A DNA stretch of 41,480 nucleotides from Microcaldota archaeon (GCA_030040265.1 JASHUB010000003.1:1-41480), one strand, 5' to 3'; shown: positions 1,703 to 34,689, numbered from the stretch's first letter. Translations and numbers: made by a program. Notes: generated by a model from the sequence alone, not told the origin.

Positions 1703-3232
1703 ATGGTCAAAGGCATCGACTCGCTCAAAGCCCTTTTCAAGACCCGTGCTGCAGTTCAGGAGCCTGACAGCTGCAAGATGGGCTTCGCCTTGGATGAGCC
1801 TCCGGCTGGCGAGAAGGTCGATGATACGATCTCTACGGTCAACAGGACGATAGTGAAGAGAAACAACGCTTACACTTACGCTGTCGCGTACGGCAACGCG
1901 CCGGTGACGCGGCAGGAGATTTCCAGGATGGAGCTCTCAAAGGCCGCGGTGATAGACGCGCTCGCTAAAGGAAGCGAGCAGATAACGCCCGCATTGCTGT
2001 TCACCGCAAAAAGGGTCGCAGAGGACGAGCTCTCCAAGCACATGCAGCGGGACAGGGCGTCGTACCTCTCCTATCTTGTCGCGCACGACACCGTCGGCTA
2101 CGGTCCATTGAGCATATTGATGGAGGACAGGCAGAACATAGAGGAGATAGAGGTCAACTCGCCCGCTTCCAGCATCTCGATCTACCACGCAGCTTACGGC
2201 AGGTGCGCCACGAACCTCAGATTCACGGGCGAGCCTTCGTTCCGGTACGAGATAAACAAGCTGATATGCGACGCGGAGAAGGAGCTGAACGAGGACACAC
2301 CGATAATCGACGCGCAGGTCGACACCGCGAGGATACACGCGCAGATACGGCCGTACGCCACGCAGGGCGCGGCCGCAACCATCAGGCTGCACGGAGACAA
2401 GAGGATGGGACTGCTCGGCCTCATGAAGAACGGCACCGCCGATGCGGAGGTGCTCGCATACATCTGGCTTGCTGTAGAGTGCGGGCAGAACATCATCCTC
2501 TCAGGCGCGCCGGCCAGCGGCAAGACCACGATGCTCTCGTCCATATTCTCATTCATACCGAGGTTCGCGAAGACCGTCATAATCGAGGAGGACGTGAACG
2601 AGCTGCGCTTCGAGCAGCAGATATACAACATCGTCTCGCTCTACGGCTCGAAGTACAAAAGCAACGTCACGCCGAAGGAGCAGATAATCAATTCGCTGCG
2701 CATGCGCCCGGACCGCATCGTCGTCGGAGAGATGCGCGGCGACGAGGCGCGGGAGGCGTTCGCCGGCGCGAATCTCGGAGTGCCGTTCATGACCACCATG
2801 CACAGCAACGAAGGCGGCCTCGCAATAGTCAAGCGCCTGCTCGTCCGGCCGATGTCGGTGGAGCCGAGGGCCATAGGCATGATGGACCTCGCGATATGCA
2901 TGCGGCAGACAGATCTAAGGAGAAGGATGCTCGCGGAGGTCTACGAATACAGGTGGCTTAGCAGGGCCGAGACCGAGAGCATACAGACCGAGATAGGCGA
3001 CGGCGATTCCGTCGCGATAGCCAAGTCCGTGGCGGACGGCAGGATGGCGCAGGGCATCCTGGAGACATCGAAGGTACTCGAGTCGTACGGAAAATGGAAA
3101 GGGCTGTCGAAGAGGCTCGTCGCCAAGGAGCTGCTAAAAAGGACAAAGTTCCTGAACGACGAGAGCTCCGCGTGCAAGACCGAGAGCGAGCTGCAGGACA
3201 AGATATACCTGTACAGGGTGGGCCTCGCATGA
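1703..3232 (+). CDS. Type II/IV secretion system ATPase (TadA/VirB11/ArlI-like superfamily)
   Basis: 509 aa; Walker A GAPASGKTTM, Asp/Glu boxes (VIIEEDVNELRF), RMRPDRIVVGEMRGDEAREAF, TTMHSNEGG. Confidence 0.9.
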   Translation: MVKGIDSLKALFKTRAAVQEPDSCKMGFALDEPPAGEKVDDTISTVNRTIVKRNNAYTYAVAYGNAPVTRQEISRMELSKAAVIDALAKGSEQITPALLFTAKRVAEDELSKHMQRDRASYLSYLVAHDTVGYGPLSILMEDRQNIEEIEVNSPASSISIYHAAYGRCATNLRFTGEPSFRYEINKLICDAEKELNEDTPIIDAQVDTARIHAQIRPYATQGAAATIRLHGDKRMGLLGLMKNGTADAEVLAYIWLAVECGQNIILSGAPASGKTTMLSSIFSFIPRFAKTVIIEEDVNELRFEQQIYNIVSLYGSKYKSNVTPKEQIINSLRMRPDRIVVGEMRGDEAREAFAGANLGVPFMTTMHSNEGGLAIVKRLLVRPMSVEPRAIGMMDLAICMRQTDLRRRMLAEVYEYRWLSRAETESIQTEIGDGDSVAIAKSVADGRMAQGILETSKVLESYGKWKGLSKRLVAKELLKRTKFLNDESSACKTESELQDKIYLYRVGLA

Positions 3233-3927
3233 ACGTTCTGCCGGCCGCGAAAGTCGTCGCATGCGCATCGCTCATGGCCATCGCGGTGCTGTTCATAAGC
3301 GGGACTTCAGGGATCATCACAGCCGTGATCGTGTTCCAGCTCTCGCTGCTGTTCGTTTCGCTGCTCGCATACATGCTGCGCAGGTCCCGCACCCTGAGCG
3401 CGGAGCGGAGGCTGGCGGACGAGCTCGTTGAAAGTCTCCGCTACGTCCTGTTCTGCAGGTCCAAGGGCATGCCGACGGCATCGGCCCTCAGGCTTGCGGG
3501 GAGCAAGGCCAGGCAGCAGCGCGGCAGGGACATCCTCAGCGTCTCCTCAAGGAGGATGGCGCTCGGAGATAGCCTCCAACAGTCCCTCTTGCGCACCGTC
3601 GCACCCGTGCCGAAGGACCTGCGCGACTCCGTCGTTTCAGCGGACTGGTCGGACGACGGCAAGGCGCTCGGTTCCATGATCAGCTCGTACGGCTACGCGC
3701 TGGAGAACAGGCGCGCACGCATCGAGGAGTCGGTGCAGCGCTACGCAACCATCAACATGTTCCTCTCTACGGTCGTCCCGTCCTTCATCGTCTTCGCGTT
3801 CATCGGAAGCGCCCTCCTCTCCCAGAGGGAGGGCAGCCTTCTGACACTATCGATAGCGCTGCTGATCGCTCTCCCGGTCGCATACGGCGTATGCAACACA
3901 ATGCTATCGAGGAGGTTGTTTGGATAG
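3229..3927 (+). CDS. TadC/T2SF-like integral membrane protein, first copy
   Basis: Start MNVLPAAKVV (internal Met of the 277-aa ORF) overlaps the ATPase stop (ATGA); hydrophobic segments at both ends; position in operon. Confidence 0.7.
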   Translation: MNVLPAAKVVACASLMAIAVLFISGTSGIITAVIVFQLSLLFVSLLAYMLRRSRTLSAERRLADELVESLRYVLFCRSKGMPTASALRLAGSKARQQRGRDILSVSSRRMALGDSLQQSLLRTVAPVPKDLRDSVVSADWSDDGKALGSMISSYGYALENRRARIEESVQRYATINMFLSTVVPSFIVFAFIGSALLSQREGSLLTLSIALLIALPVAYGVCNTMLSRRLFG

Positions 3928-4666
3928 GCTCAGGCAGGCGGTTCTTGTCGGGCTCAACGCGTCTGCAGCGCTGGCAGGCATCGCCGACCCGAGGTACCTC
4001 CTACTGCTTTCCATCCCGGTGCTGGCTGCAGACTTCCTGTTGTTCCGCCGCGCTGCAAAGATACCAGAGGAAAGGGTGGCCGAGATCGCGAGGAGCGTCG
4101 AGTTCGAGTACAAGAAGCGCGGCTCACTGTTCAACGCTCTCGCGTCCGGCGTTTCAGACACTGCCGGCAGGTTCGTGAACGAGCAATCCAGGCGGCTGAA
4201 GCTCGGCGCGCGCTCGCTGGCGAAGTGCGGCGACCAGGAACTCGACGAGCTCTTCTCCATAGCTTCGTTCGGCGCGGAGAACGGGAAGGCTGTTGGGAAG
4301 GACATCGCCGCATTCAGGGAGCGCCTCGACCGCGAGATCGCGGAGAGGAACAGGCTCAGGTCCAAGGTCGGGGGCATGCAGACCCTCTCCAACATGGGCA
4401 TGGTGCTCTTCCTTCCATTGTTCGGCGGAGTGAGCGCTGGCATACTGCAGACCTCCCTCGGAGTCATAGGCATGAGCGCAGCTACGCTGAGCCGCGGCTT
4501 CACGCTGCTCATAGAGGCGTACATATTCCTCATGCTCTACATAAGCACCGCTTTCAGGCAGCCCGGCGCCGGGGCGCTGGAAAACCTCTCCGTGGTCATG
4601 CCCCTGCTGCTCGCCGCATCCAACGTGATGCTGTTCGCAAGCACTTACATTCCAAACGCAATATAG
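3920..4666 (+). CDS. TadC/T2SF-like integral membrane protein, second copy
   Basis: 248 aa, TTG start with GGAGG just upstream, overlaps previous CDS; membrane segments and LRSKVGGMQTLSNMGMVLFLPLFGG region. Confidence 0.65.
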   Translation: MDRLRQAVLVGLNASAALAGIADPRYLLLLSIPVLAADFLLFRRAAKIPEERVAEIARSVEFEYKKRGSLFNALASGVSDTAGRFVNEQSRRLKLGARSLAKCGDQELDELFSIASFGAENGKAVGKDIAAFRERLDREIAERNRLRSKVGGMQTLSNMGMVLFLPLFGGVSAGILQTSLGVIGMSAATLSRGFTLLIEAYIFLMLYISTAFRQPGAGALENLSVVMPLLLAASNVMLFASTYIPNAI

Positions 4667-4676
4667 GTGAAAACAA

Positions 4677-4940
4677 ATGGGAAAAATATCGAATCCGCTC
4701 CTCGATGACGCGAGAGCCATCCTCGCGCTCGCACGGAGCGTGCGGACCACAAAGGGACAGGGATCTCTGGAGTACATAATGATGCTCGCTGCCGCGAGCC
4801 TCGTGATAGTCCTCGCACTAGCGATGGTCGTGAAGCTGAAGGGCTCTGTGGTGAGCAGCGTGCCGGTCAACGGCGTCAACGAGAGCATAACGAGCGCGAT
4901 ATCCGGCGAGCTGACGTCGCTGGCCAGCAACTCGGTGTGA
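4677..4940 (+). CDS. Class III signal peptide pilin-like protein, candidate major pilin
   Basis: 87 aa; KGQGSLEYIMMLAAASLVIVLALAMVV matches the Q-x-S-x-E class III prepilin signal plus hydrophobic helix. Confidence 0.8.
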   Translation: MGKISNPLLDDARAILALARSVRTTKGQGSLEYIMMLAAASLVIVLALAMVVKLKGSVVSSVPVNGVNESITSAISGELTSLASNSV

Positions 4941-4943
4941 CAG

Positions 4944-5315
4944 ATGCGCGCGCAGATGTCCTTCGAGATGCTCTTATACATGTCCCTCTCTGGGATAGCG
5001 ATACTGTTCGCGGCGCACATGGTGGCCGCTGGCGAGCCTGGCTTCCAGAAGGCGCTTGGCTCTTACGAGGCGTCCGCATTCGTGCAGGCGATAAACGACA
5101 ACATCGCGCAGGGGGACTTTGCGAGGCCGCTGCAGGTCCAGGTCCCATCTGGGCTGTGCGGCGCATCATCACAGGGCGGGGCGCTGCAGACACAGTACGG
5201 AAGCTTCGAGTTCATAACGGACGTCGAGATAGGCGCTAACGTGCTCTGCAGCCCTGGCGCGGGGCAGGTCGAACTTGTCGGATTGAACGGGACGGTGCAG
5301 GTGGTTGGCGCATGA
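4944..5315 (+). CDS. Class III signal peptide pilin-like protein
   Basis: 123 aa; MRAQMSFEMLLYMSLSGIAILFAA. Confidence 0.72.
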   Translation: MRAQMSFEMLLYMSLSGIAILFAAHMVAAGEPGFQKALGSYEASAFVQAINDNIAQGDFARPLQVQVPSGLCGASSQGGALQTQYGSFEFITDVEIGANVLCSPGAGQVELVGLNGTVQVVGA

Positions 5316-5515
5316 CACGGCTGCAGGTAAGCTTCGAGGCGATGCTCGCGATGTCCCTGGCAATGGTGATTGCGCTCTCAGTCGTATTCCTGCTTGCGCA
5401 CATCGGCGCCTCGTCATCAGCATACCAGACCGTGTTGCAGAACTACTCCAGCGCTGCGGCAAACTACACCGGCAGGCTCATGCAGCAGTGCGGCTGCTTC
5501 GTGAAGGGGATATGA
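5312..5515 (+). CDS. Small class III signal peptide pilin-like protein
   Basis: 67 aa; MTRLQVSFEAMLAMSLAMVIALSVVFLL; ATGA overlap with preceding gene. Confidence 0.7.
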   Translation: MTRLQVSFEAMLAMSLAMVIALSVVFLLAHIGASSSAYQTVLQNYSSAAANYTGRLMQQCGCFVKGI

Positions 5516-5868
5516 TGAAAGGTACGATGGTGATGCTGGACCTGATGGTCGCGCTCCCGATAGTGGCGCTTTCAGTGATCATGCTCTTCGGCTGCGCGTA
5601 CGCATTGCAGAACGGCATAGCATCCGCGGCTTCGTACCAGAAGGCGATGCTCGGGCGGTACGCGGCATCGCAACTGGTGGTGTCCGGCGCTTCGGCGGTA
5701 GATGGCAACTACTCGTCGCTCATGTCGCTCGCAGCATCCGTCGGCGGCGAGCTAGGCGTGAACGTCAGCGTCTCCGCATTCACAGGCGCAACGCAGTGCG
5801 AGACGTCACTCGAGGTGTGCAGGATAGTGACGGCGGGTGGAGACTCATATTTCATGGTGGTTAGATGA
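5512..5868 (+). CDS. Pilin-like/pseudopilin-like protein with N-terminal hydrophobic helix
   Basis: Start MMKGTMVMLDLMVALPIVALSVIMLFGCAYA (internal Met of the 187-aa ORF), ATGA overlap with upstream gene; lacks an obvious Q-x-S-x-E. Confidence 0.65.
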   Translation: MMKGTMVMLDLMVALPIVALSVIMLFGCAYALQNGIASAASYQKAMLGRYAASQLVVSGASAVDGNYSSLMSLAASVGGELGVNVSVSAFTGATQCETSLEVCRIVTAGGDSYFMVVR

Positions 5869-7199
5869 GAATACAGGCAAGCATGGAGTTCCTGATACTC
5901 GCGAGCGCGATAAGCGTGCTCTGCTTGGGGACGATAGTGATGTACGGAAGCAGCATCGGAGCGCAGAACGCATTTGTCGGCGGGCTCTACGCGAACTCGC
6001 TGGACTCGAACATACTCGCCAGCAACACCCTAGCGGCCGCCGCGGAAGATCCTTCTGCGTTGATATACGTCCCAGTGAATTCAACTGTAGGCCAGCAGGG
6101 CAGGATAGAGGCGACGTTCTACGGCTGCACCAACGGCACGGCCAGCCTCTCTGCGAACTCGCCGACGCTTGCGTTCTCCACGGCGTCGGACAACAGCATA
6201 TCCGTTTCGGGAGTCAGCGTCGCGTCGCTGGCATTCACGCCCGCATCATCGGGGCTCGCATCGGTGCTCGTGGACTACGCCATGCAATGCGGCGCGCAGA
6301 GGATCACCGGTTCGAAAGCGTTCGACACGTTCGCGATAGTGCCAGGCGCTTTCGACGCAGGGGGAGGCAATGGCACGGGCTTCACGGACTACGCCGCAAT
6401 AACCGGGAGGAGCGAGCGCCTAGCCTACGCGCTGACCCCGCCCAGCAGCATCCCGGTCACGCAGTCGCAGAACCACTGCGCGAACATGGGGCTCAACAAC
6501 CAGCTCAATCCCCCGGCATCGCAGTGCGGCAACGAGCCTGGATGGAGCGGCAACGGCGGTTGGGGCTACTTCCAGTACAACGGCGGATGTTCAGGATGGG
6601 GAATCGCCGAGGCGACCGTGACCTGCATAGAGCCCGTGCCTTCAGGATACGAAATCGCCACCACAAGCCCGCAGAACGTAACGTATCTGTACAACTTCTC
6701 GCTCTCGGTATCCACGCAGAAGGGGCTACTGACCGCAGCCTTCTCGAACTCTTCGAAGATTGCGCCTGTGGATTTTGACGGCATGGCTGTAGGCAACGCC
6801 ACCGTGGTGAACGTGACAGGCAGCGGCACTTCGCAGGGAGTCGCCGTCATAGAATACAACGGCGCGAACACCATAGCGAACCCAGGCAACTACACCGCAT
6901 TCGTGCAGGCAAAGAACAACCTCTATGCGACGCTCGGCTACTTCAACGCCACGTACTTCGGGTACGGCACATCCCCGTCGCAGCCACAGGAGGCGCTGTC
7001 GCAGTACCAGAGCGCAGAGGACGCCGTGGTCAAGGGATCTCAGGCGAGCGGTTCGTGCGCGCTCCAGAGGCAGGGATATGTCTGCGGCTCGCCGTTCCCT
7101 CTTTCGTATGTGGTCCGCATAAGCCTGCCGCCCGGCGCAGGCGTGGCCAACGCCGTAGTGTCTGACGACGGGTCACTGATATACCTGAACACGACGTGA
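5865..7199 (+). CDS. Large class III signal peptide protein; candidate pilus tip/adhesin subunit
   Basis: 444 aa; MRIQASMEFLILASAISVLCLG is a full QxSxExxxL match; long Ser/Thr/Asn-rich ectodomain with several Cys. Confidence 0.75.
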   Translation: MRIQASMEFLILASAISVLCLGTIVMYGSSIGAQNAFVGGLYANSLDSNILASNTLAAAAEDPSALIYVPVNSTVGQQGRIEATFYGCTNGTASLSANSPTLAFSTASDNSISVSGVSVASLAFTPASSGLASVLVDYAMQCGAQRITGSKAFDTFAIVPGAFDAGGGNGTGFTDYAAITGRSERLAYALTPPSSIPVTQSQNHCANMGLNNQLNPPASQCGNEPGWSGNGGWGYFQYNGGCSGWGIAEATVTCIEPVPSGYEIATTSPQNVTYLYNFSLSVSTQKGLLTAAFSNSSKIAPVDFDGMAVGNATVVNVTGSGTSQGVAVIEYNGANTIANPGNYTAFVQAKNNLYATLGYFNATYFGYGTSPSQPQEALSQYQSAEDAVVKGSQASGSCALQRQGYVCGSPFPLSYVVRISLPPGAGVANAVVSDDGSLIYLNTT

Positions 7200-7203
7200 A
7201 TGG

Positions 7204-7596
7204 ATGAAAGCCCAGTTCGCAACTGTCGAGGCGGTGGTGTCCCTGCTCTTCGTCCTCTCGCTGGCAGTCTTCTGCATCAAGGAGGCCGCGGCTTACGCAC
7301 AAAGCTCGTTCGAAGCGAGGCAGGGACTCGCGACCAGCATCGCGACCTATGACCTGATAAGCCAGCTCATGGGCAACGGCACTGCAAAGGCATGCGCTGC
7401 GGTGTTCGCCGCCTCCGGCGACAGTTCCTGCATCGCGGGATACGCATCGGCCTACGAGTCAGCATACGGGCTCTCCTCGGTCGCGTTGACCATCGGCAAC
7501 AGGACATACGGGAGCATGGCGAACAGCACTGTGCGGTGCTTCCCGTACAACATTACCGGAAACGTCTCGATCGCATGCATAGGGGTGCGTGGCTGA
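7204..7596 (+). CDS. Prepilin-like protein
   Basis: 130 aa; MKAQFATVEAVVSLLFVLSLAVFCIKEAAAYAQ resembles a class III prepilin N-terminus with variation. Confidence 0.65.
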   Translation: MKAQFATVEAVVSLLFVLSLAVFCIKEAAAYAQSSFEARQGLATSIATYDLISQLMGNGTAKACAAVFAASGDSSCIAGYASAYESAYGLSSVALTIGNRTYGSMANSTVRCFPYNITGNVSIACIGVRG

Positions 7597-7874
7597 TGTC
7601 GTTCTTCGGCGCGGTCCTTGTGGTCACTGTCTTCGCTGTCGCGGTGTGCACAGGCATCGCGATCAAGGAACTTGTCTACGCCGGATCAATAAACTCGGAT
7701 ATGTCGCAGGCTTCCGCCGCCGTGTCGCTTGAGACGCAGCAGGCGCTTGTCGCATCGATGCCCGGCCAGATGCAGAACTACACCGCGGCGGTGAGCGGCA
7801 TCGAGGTCGTGGACCTGAACGGCACGTATCTCATAGAAGGAGGCAACGGATACATCTACTCGTTCGGCGGCTAA
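7596..7874 (+). CDS. Small membrane/secreted protein at end of pilus operon
   Basis: Start MSFFGAVLVVTVFAVAVCTGIAIKE inside the 160-aa ORF; ATG shares a base with the upstream stop TGA (TGATG). Confidence 0.6.
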   Translation: MSFFGAVLVVTVFAVAVCTGIAIKELVYAGSINSDMSQASAAVSLETQQALVASMPGQMQNYTAAVSGIEVVDLNGTYLIEGGNGYIYSFGG

Positions 7875-18099: not shown

Positions 18100-18220
18100 T
18101 GGCGGGGGCGGGATTTGAACACGCGACCTCTAGATTTCTTAGCAATCACAGCACAAGGCTCATCACTCATAATGCTTTGCATATGAGTCTAGCGCTCTAA
18201 CCAGGCTGAGCTACCCCGCC
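18100..18220 (-). tRNA. tRNA-Met(CAT), intron-containing (canonical 37/38 site, ~46-nt intron about 18136-18181)
   Basis: GGCGGGG/CCCCGCC acceptor, D-arm GCTCAGCCTGGTTAGAGC, CTAGA/TCTAG anticodon stem, anticodon CAT, T-loop TTCAAAT; one T-stem mismatch. Confidence 0.9.
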
Positions 18221-34560: not shown

Positions 34561-34586
34561 CACAACATAACAATCAATATGTTGTG
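34561..34586. repeat. Perfect 9-bp inverted repeat CACAACATA-N8-TATGTTGTG abutting the tRNA-Leu 5' end
   Basis: Arms 34561-34569 and 34578-34586; last base is G1 of the tRNA. Confidence 0.8.
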
Positions 34587-34689
34587 CAGGGATGGCGGAG
34601 CCTGGTCAAACGCGGCAGACTCAAGATCTGTTGGCTTAGGCCTACGGGAGTTCAATAACAGAAATGTTGGACAAATCTCTCTCCCTGCA
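34586..34689 (+). tRNA. tRNA-Leu(CAA) with a 19-nt non-canonical T-loop intron (about 34656-34674)
   Basis: GCAGGGA/TCCCTGC acceptor, GCAGA-CTCAAGA-TCTGT anticodon arm, long variable arm, T-stem GGGAG/CTCTC; T-loop TTCAAAT restored only by removing 19 nt (TAACAGAAATGTTGGACAA, boundaries ambiguous by CAA repeat). Confidence 0.88.

Follow-up and report, generated by a model that had tools for sequence, protein, structure and literature searches.

The ten genes at positions 1703-7874 of the analyzed DNA, a contig of 41,480 nucleotides (the window; contig C47) from the metagenome-assembled genome G000 of Candidatus Micrarchaeota, almost certainly encode a type IV pilus system, and by sequence comparison they form a complete pilus assembly operon that is specific to the Micrarchaeota. 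The genome has a size of 805 kb and is 77.5% complete, so that about a fifth of it is missing from the assembly. The novelty lies in a predicted regulon tying this pilus to a DNA-transfer-like apparatus; the operon itself had already been noted in outline. The best overall explanation, which is considered likely, combines the pilus operon, a tip cassette and a regulon with a pilus that would hold cells during a Ced-like transfer of DNA. Host contact is considered essential for most DPANN archaea, and the pilus and its operator bear on how such contact is made and how genes are exchanged.

All ten genes (g1-g10) are located on one strand (+), and adjacent genes overlap or are separated by 10 nt or less. 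They encode a VirB11/GspE-type ATPase (g1), two half-size TadC proteins (g2 and g3) and seven pilin-like subunits (g4-g10). An earlier note on this DNA had described such a compact, co-directional array, and each of its genes was found where it had been placed. In the synteny analysis that the note had proposed, the complete and ordered set g1-g10 was identified in 45 of the 52 loci bearing g8, and a chance array of open reading frames was therefore rejected. As judged from the sequence, the operon is real and old.

An ATPase of the g1 type (E-value of 1e-75 or better) was found in 104 of 295 Micrarchaeota genomes, every one of which belongs to family f1, f2, f11 or f25. Full-length g8 is restricted to f1 and f2. 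For f11 and f25, profile searches recovered g4-g9 slot by slot in the same order, and g10 weakly in three of five loci. The subunit set directly follows the ATPase-TadC-TadC genes in f11 (loci L138 and L141) and is convergent with them in f25. According to these profile matches, the orthologous operon is present in two further families of the class, and the idea that it is strictly order-specific was rejected, since f11 and f25 also carry it. The two f11 loci contain an additional class III subunit between g8 and g9.

In four genomes (G004, G003, G028 and G035) g5-g10, or parts of this set, are located apart from the ATPase genes, and in G155 a split-off g7-g8 piece lies behind its own operator. 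Because of these separations, g5-g10 can be described as a unit, or cassette. In G005 (L043, L110) one ATPase copy carries an in-frame TAG and a second g2-g10 set was found on a short contig, which may be due to strain variation or to the assembly.

The secretion ATPase g1 (1703-3232, 509 aa) matches T2SSE with an E-value of 2.1e-20, in agreement with the TadA/VirB11-like ATPase of the earlier note. Its closest solved structure is PDB 2oap (1.4e-62, profile positions 53-500). In a tree with an arbitrary root, the g1 ATPases of f1, f2, f11 and f25 form one clade (support 100/99), which is separate from other Micrarchaeota pilus ATPases as well as from the sampled ATPases of Aenigmatarchaeota, Methanomicrobiales, Sulfolobales and Thermofilaceae. 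Most full-length members of the clade score about 390-706 bits, and the best score among 115 genomes of the phylum of the Aenigmatarchaeota locus was 253 bits. None of the 120 genomes of the phylum of the Methanomicrobiales locus reached 1e-70. In searches that included these two phyla, both the g1 clade and g8 were found in the Micrarchaeota only.

The two half-size TadC-like platform proteins g2 (3229-3927, 232 aa) and g3 (3920-4666, 248 aa, TTG start) remained below the T2SSF cut-off when the window proteins were taken alone, and their assignment as TadC-like, also made in the earlier note, was borne out by profiles built from relatives. T2SSF was matched by three members each of the g2 and g3 alignments (best E-values 1.7e-5 and 5.3e-6, respectively). 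A direct comparison of both alignments gave a match with a probability of 96.8%.

The leaders of pilins are cut by an A24-type peptidase. The genes called for the window include no evident prepilin peptidase or archaellum motor gene, as had been noted before, and the peptidase was located, as suggested, on another contig of the genome (G000:C37; Peptidase_A24 with a GGGD motif, one copy). A missing peptidase was rejected on this basis. Exactly one A24 peptidase was found in each of 37 of the 40 genomes searched; PF06847 alone proved too weak as a probe. With an ATPase, a T2SSF platform, class III prepilins (g4, g5, g6 and g8) and a genomic peptidase, the predicted system is an archaeal type IV pilus. 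An archaellum was rejected, since the score for the FlaI equivalog (163 bits) is below the cut-off of 550 and the gene content differs. FlaH, FlaF and FlaG had no family match among the ten operon genes; a genome-wide search for them was not made.

All five class III-type signals reported in the earlier note (GQGSLE, AQMSFE, LQVSFE, IQASME and AQFATVE) are present. Five of the ten operon genes carry such a motif ahead of a hydrophobic stretch; of the other called genes of the window (34), none does. The conserved signals differ from slot to slot: the acidic residue is at +5 in g4, g5, g8 and most g6 and at +6 in g9, whereas g7 mostly has Asp and g10 has no acid. QFATVEA, which had been read as a variant, is thus a separate conserved class and no decayed signal.

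The probable major pilin g4 (4677-4940, GQGSLEY) carries a canonical signal in each of 46 loci. In the window a leader of approximately 27 residues is followed by a mature part of approximately 60 residues. Most loci have a leader of 15-30 residues, the motif [GS]-Q-[GS]-S-[LI]-E-Y and then about 60 residues. Since only this short stretch follows the signal, g4 was classified as a headless pilin, with no globular domain. Its match to Class_IIIsignal (4e-4) is below the cut-off.

Among the putative minor pilins, g5 (4944-5315, 123 aa, AQMSFE) has two invariant Cys and, in 48 of 49 loci, a canonical signal; the small g6 (5312-5515, 67 aa, LQVSFE) has such a signal in 32 of 49. For g7 (5512-5868, 118 aa, KGTMVMLD) profile matches were obtained in 50 loci; its signal is a variant with mostly Asp and no Q, and 49 of the 50 have no canonical Q-x-S-x-E. 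The large subunit g8 (5865-7199, 444 aa, IQASMEF), a candidate tip adhesin, contains the invariant residues Q4, E8 and F9 and six invariant Cys. Its AlphaFold2 model consists of a long helix and a beta-rich, Ig-like ectodomain, with a predicted local distance difference test (pLDDT) score of 82.1. Fold matches of g8 were limited to generic Ig-like or beta-sandwich folds with a query TM-score of at most 0.31, and the match to Fusexin1 was not taken as homology. In L107 (G003), in other genomes of the genus designated g3 and in L109 (G035), g8 lacks the region from the N-terminal helix to approximately profile position 150 and consequently has a shorter ectodomain.

The spacing from Q to E in the putative minor pilin g9 (7204-7596, 130 aa, AQFATVE), and with it the acid at +6, is kept in 48 of 52 loci, and four Cys are conserved. 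The g9 model, predicted with high confidence (pLDDT 96.6), combines a 56-residue helix with two further, short helices and a small beta-sheet. The leaderless putative minor pilin g10 (7596-7874, 92 aa, MSFFG) mostly begins with M-[SGAP]-x-[YF]-G (51 loci), with neither a leader nor an N-terminal acid, and the canonical signal is absent in 49 of the 51. Because the acid is missing, g10 fits a tip cap. The chances that g5-g10 constitute a tip complex are judged to be even. From this arrangement we infer that g10 would be placed at the tip as the cap and g8 as the displayed adhesin.

In the Aenigmatarchaeota pilus loci L164 and L165, three small proteins were observed whose signals are like those of g9 (acid at +6), g7 (Asp or Glu following a KGF leader) and g10 (none). 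Such a trio may be general in DPANN pili.

Upstream of the operon, a small regulator gene (1201-1566, - strand, 121 aa as called) is transcribed divergently. In 39 of the 46 loci having the ATPase, this gene is the immediate upstream neighbour of the ATPase gene, in divergent orientation. No Pfam or PHROGs family matched the regulator, and its designation as a probable winged-helix DNA-binding protein is read from the sequence. A rare palindrome, TWTACYWWRGTAWA, is located upstream of the ATPase gene; in the window this predicted operator, TTTACTAAAGTAAA, lies between the regulator gene and g1 (1679-1692). The regulator probably binds this operator. In the G000 assembly only this pilus site and one off-consensus site were found, and the congener G001 has a site with one mismatch before g1. 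In L214 (G103) and L238 (G083) regulator and operator are still found beside shortened ATPase remnants, which suggests that the pilus was lost and the regulator retained.

The operator census yielded 158 sites in 67 related genomes. While 34 of these precede g1, 38 are located 355-470 bp before a gene labelled VirB6-like, where 0.07 would be expected by chance. Sixteen genomes have both the pilus site and the site of the VirB6-like gene. The first gene of this second operon encodes a VirB2-like pilin (matched by TrbC in 9 and by T4SS_pilin in 6 of 16 members), and the second the polytopic VirB6-like protein. Where a third gene was called, its product has membrane helices at the N-terminus. The congener G001 has this operon with an exact operator site, and in G173 and G110 a second regulator copy is divergent from it. 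Comparison of the VirB2-like and VirB6-like profiles with solved structures gave nothing usable. Further sites were found upstream of genes for VirB4/HerA-like ATPases; CedD and VirB4 are among the named families closest to these. A regulon shared within the order is regarded as quite likely on the basis of these sites, and its presence in G000 itself as somewhat probable. Other sites, such as L190 (G034) and L199 (G180), precede genes of about 500 aa, and still others have no obvious link; these could possibly be further regulon members or background.

In the proposed mechanism, the single A24 peptidase encoded elsewhere would trim the leaders. Since g10 has no acid to neutralize the N-terminus of the next subunit, it would sit at the extreme of the tip, and g5-g9 would make up the rest of a tip complex, which would initiate assembly and present the large, disulfide-bonded g8 as an adhesin. 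With g1 hydrolyzing ATP on the g2/g3 platform, g4 would then be added and the filament would lengthen. The regulator would bind the palindrome and, in relatives, would also control the VirB2/VirB6-like operon and the VirB4/HerA-like ATPases. Given the operator shared with these genes, and by comparison with Ups and Ced, the pilus would most likely keep cells attached to each other during the movement of DNA by a Ced-like apparatus. DNA exchange as the function is a tentative assignment. An integrated regulon of the order's host-dependent Micrarchaeota, in which one small regulator and operator would switch on both a dedicated pilus with its specialized tip cassette and a VirB2/VirB6/VirB4-like channel so that the cell docks on a partner and imports the partner's DNA, is likewise put forward with reservation.

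Several results weigh against this mechanism. The density of related sites in the intergenic region between the regulator gene and g1 (22 in 5,971 bp from 32 loci, compared to 4 in 360,759 bp of the remaining sequence of these loci) is not an independent result, since the operator pattern was written after viewing the pilus promoters; only the association with VirB2/VirB6 is independent. No family matched the VirB6-like gene, whose label follows from gene order and topology only, and in G000, at 77.5% completeness, this gene was not found. Among the 158 operator sites, 86 were not assigned to a target. The g9 model had no match to a known pilin fold in the PDB (best E-value 0.87). G002 and other genomes have no pilus and carry the VirB6-like gene with an operator site, so that pilus and VirB6-like system can be separated. 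A strict presence/absence link between pilus and VirB6-like gene was rejected, as several genomes have the VirB6-like gene alone.

This separate occurrence is also consistent with an ordinary adhesion pilus for hosts or surfaces, which would have no role in DNA transfer and whose operator would respond to a common condition, e.g., host contact or envelope stress. The large, cysteine-rich surface subunit g8 fits such a pilus, and pili-like links between small and larger cells in acid mine samples are cited in PMC5498576. The other recurring operator targets, however, are VirB2/VirB6-like and VirB4/HerA-like genes and not a mixed set. The adhesion pilus is considered possible, with the same reservation as the integrated regulon.

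A reading of the palindrome as a promoter element or local repeat, with no operator and no regulon, is improbable. The position of the palindrome within approximately 85 bp before the start of the ATPase match, in an A+T-rich region, would fit a promoter element; its number of exact copies per genome (0 to 5), its dyad symmetry, its doubling at a spacing of 20 bp in L118, L057 and L058 and its 38 occurrences before the VirB2/VirB6-like operon do not. A pseudopilus-like secretion device with no long filament, in which the almost headless g4 (about 60 mature residues) would be a short piston, g8 would handle substrates and six accessory subunits would serve one major pilin, is very improbable, as short major pilins are typical of Tad and Epd filaments (PMC6668835) and, in the relatives read, neither a secreted substrate nor an additional secretion gene accompanies the operon.

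The earlier note had not recognized the subunit set beyond the ATPase and TadC. That the set is lineage-specific is supported, and no described euryarchaeal cluster with the same gene order was found; the locus is not undescribed, as a pilus locus of Mancarchaeum acidiphilum Mia14 is already listed (PMC5498576). Golyshina et al. (2017; PMC5498576) described Mia14 as having two pilus loci and a single FlaK-like peptidase and as lacking an archaellum. The main text devotes about one sentence to MIA14_0252-0260 and describes no subunit set, signals, tip cassette, operator or VirB2-like link. In G030 the operon is located at 230 kb, a second pilus locus at 147 kb and the peptidase at 530 kb, which fits the Mia14 gene numbers 252, 170 and 570. 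Since all three numbers fit, MIA14_0252-0260 is very probably the orthologous operon, and we infer that G030 is Mia14. Micrarchaeum, ARMAN and DPANN are all absent from the main text of the census by Makarova et al. (PMC4858521).

A second pilus locus was also observed in G000 (L048, G000:C33:7000-21000; also L175). It comprises an ATPase and two full-size TadC proteins and, on the opposite strand, large pilin-like proteins (KAQFWSFD, KGIVFTLD, KGQLMTI). Its gene order corresponds to the G030 locus that fits MIA14_0170-0177. Elsewhere in the window, two tRNA genes (18100-18220, - strand, and 34586-34689, + strand) have lengths compatible with an intron; both were matched by Rfam and neither by ARAGORN.

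The named genes, the regulator, the DNA site and the second machine can now be tested as one predicted regulon in a group that has cultured members, e.g., Mia14. The fixed set of six pilin-like subunits, in which each slot has a signal of its own, also provides a good model of how archaeal pili are initiated and capped. If true, the proposed link would extend the logic of Ups and Ced beyond the Sulfolobales and could help to account for the reported gene flow between Mia14 and Cuniculiplasma.

Ups and Ced of the Sulfolobales are co-induced and are both required for DNA import (PMC11868833). The predicted regulon would be similar in that a type IV pilus would be co-controlled with VirB2-, VirB6- and VirB4-like genes (PMC11868833; PMC9905601); neither DPANN nor Micrarchaeota are mentioned in PMC9905601. 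In contrast to the UV-induced Ups system, which consists of UpsX, E, F, A and B, ten genes with a local regulator and a palindrome were found here, and the g1 clade differs from the sampled Sulfolobales ATPases. The Epd pili of Methanococcus and the bacterial Tad pili (PMC6668835) share with this operon two single-domain platform genes (g2 and g3 encode about 230-250 aa) and a short major pilin, whereas the Micrarchaeota operon, in the relatives read, starts with the ATPase gene and has neither a FlaH/TadZ gene nor a peptidase gene. Pilus filaments grow tip first, and tip complexes are capped by a subunit without Glu5 (PMC10191384). The g5-g10 set resembles the HIJK tip complex of the type II secretion system and type IVa pili in its fixed composition of minor subunits, one of which (g10) has no +5 acid, and differs from it in that no sequence or fold match was found, g9 having no PDB match. 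Finally, the archaeal GspE-type ATPase of a type II secretion system in PDB 2oap is the closest solved relative of g1, which, unlike it, belongs to its own Micrarchaeota clade among the sampled sequences.

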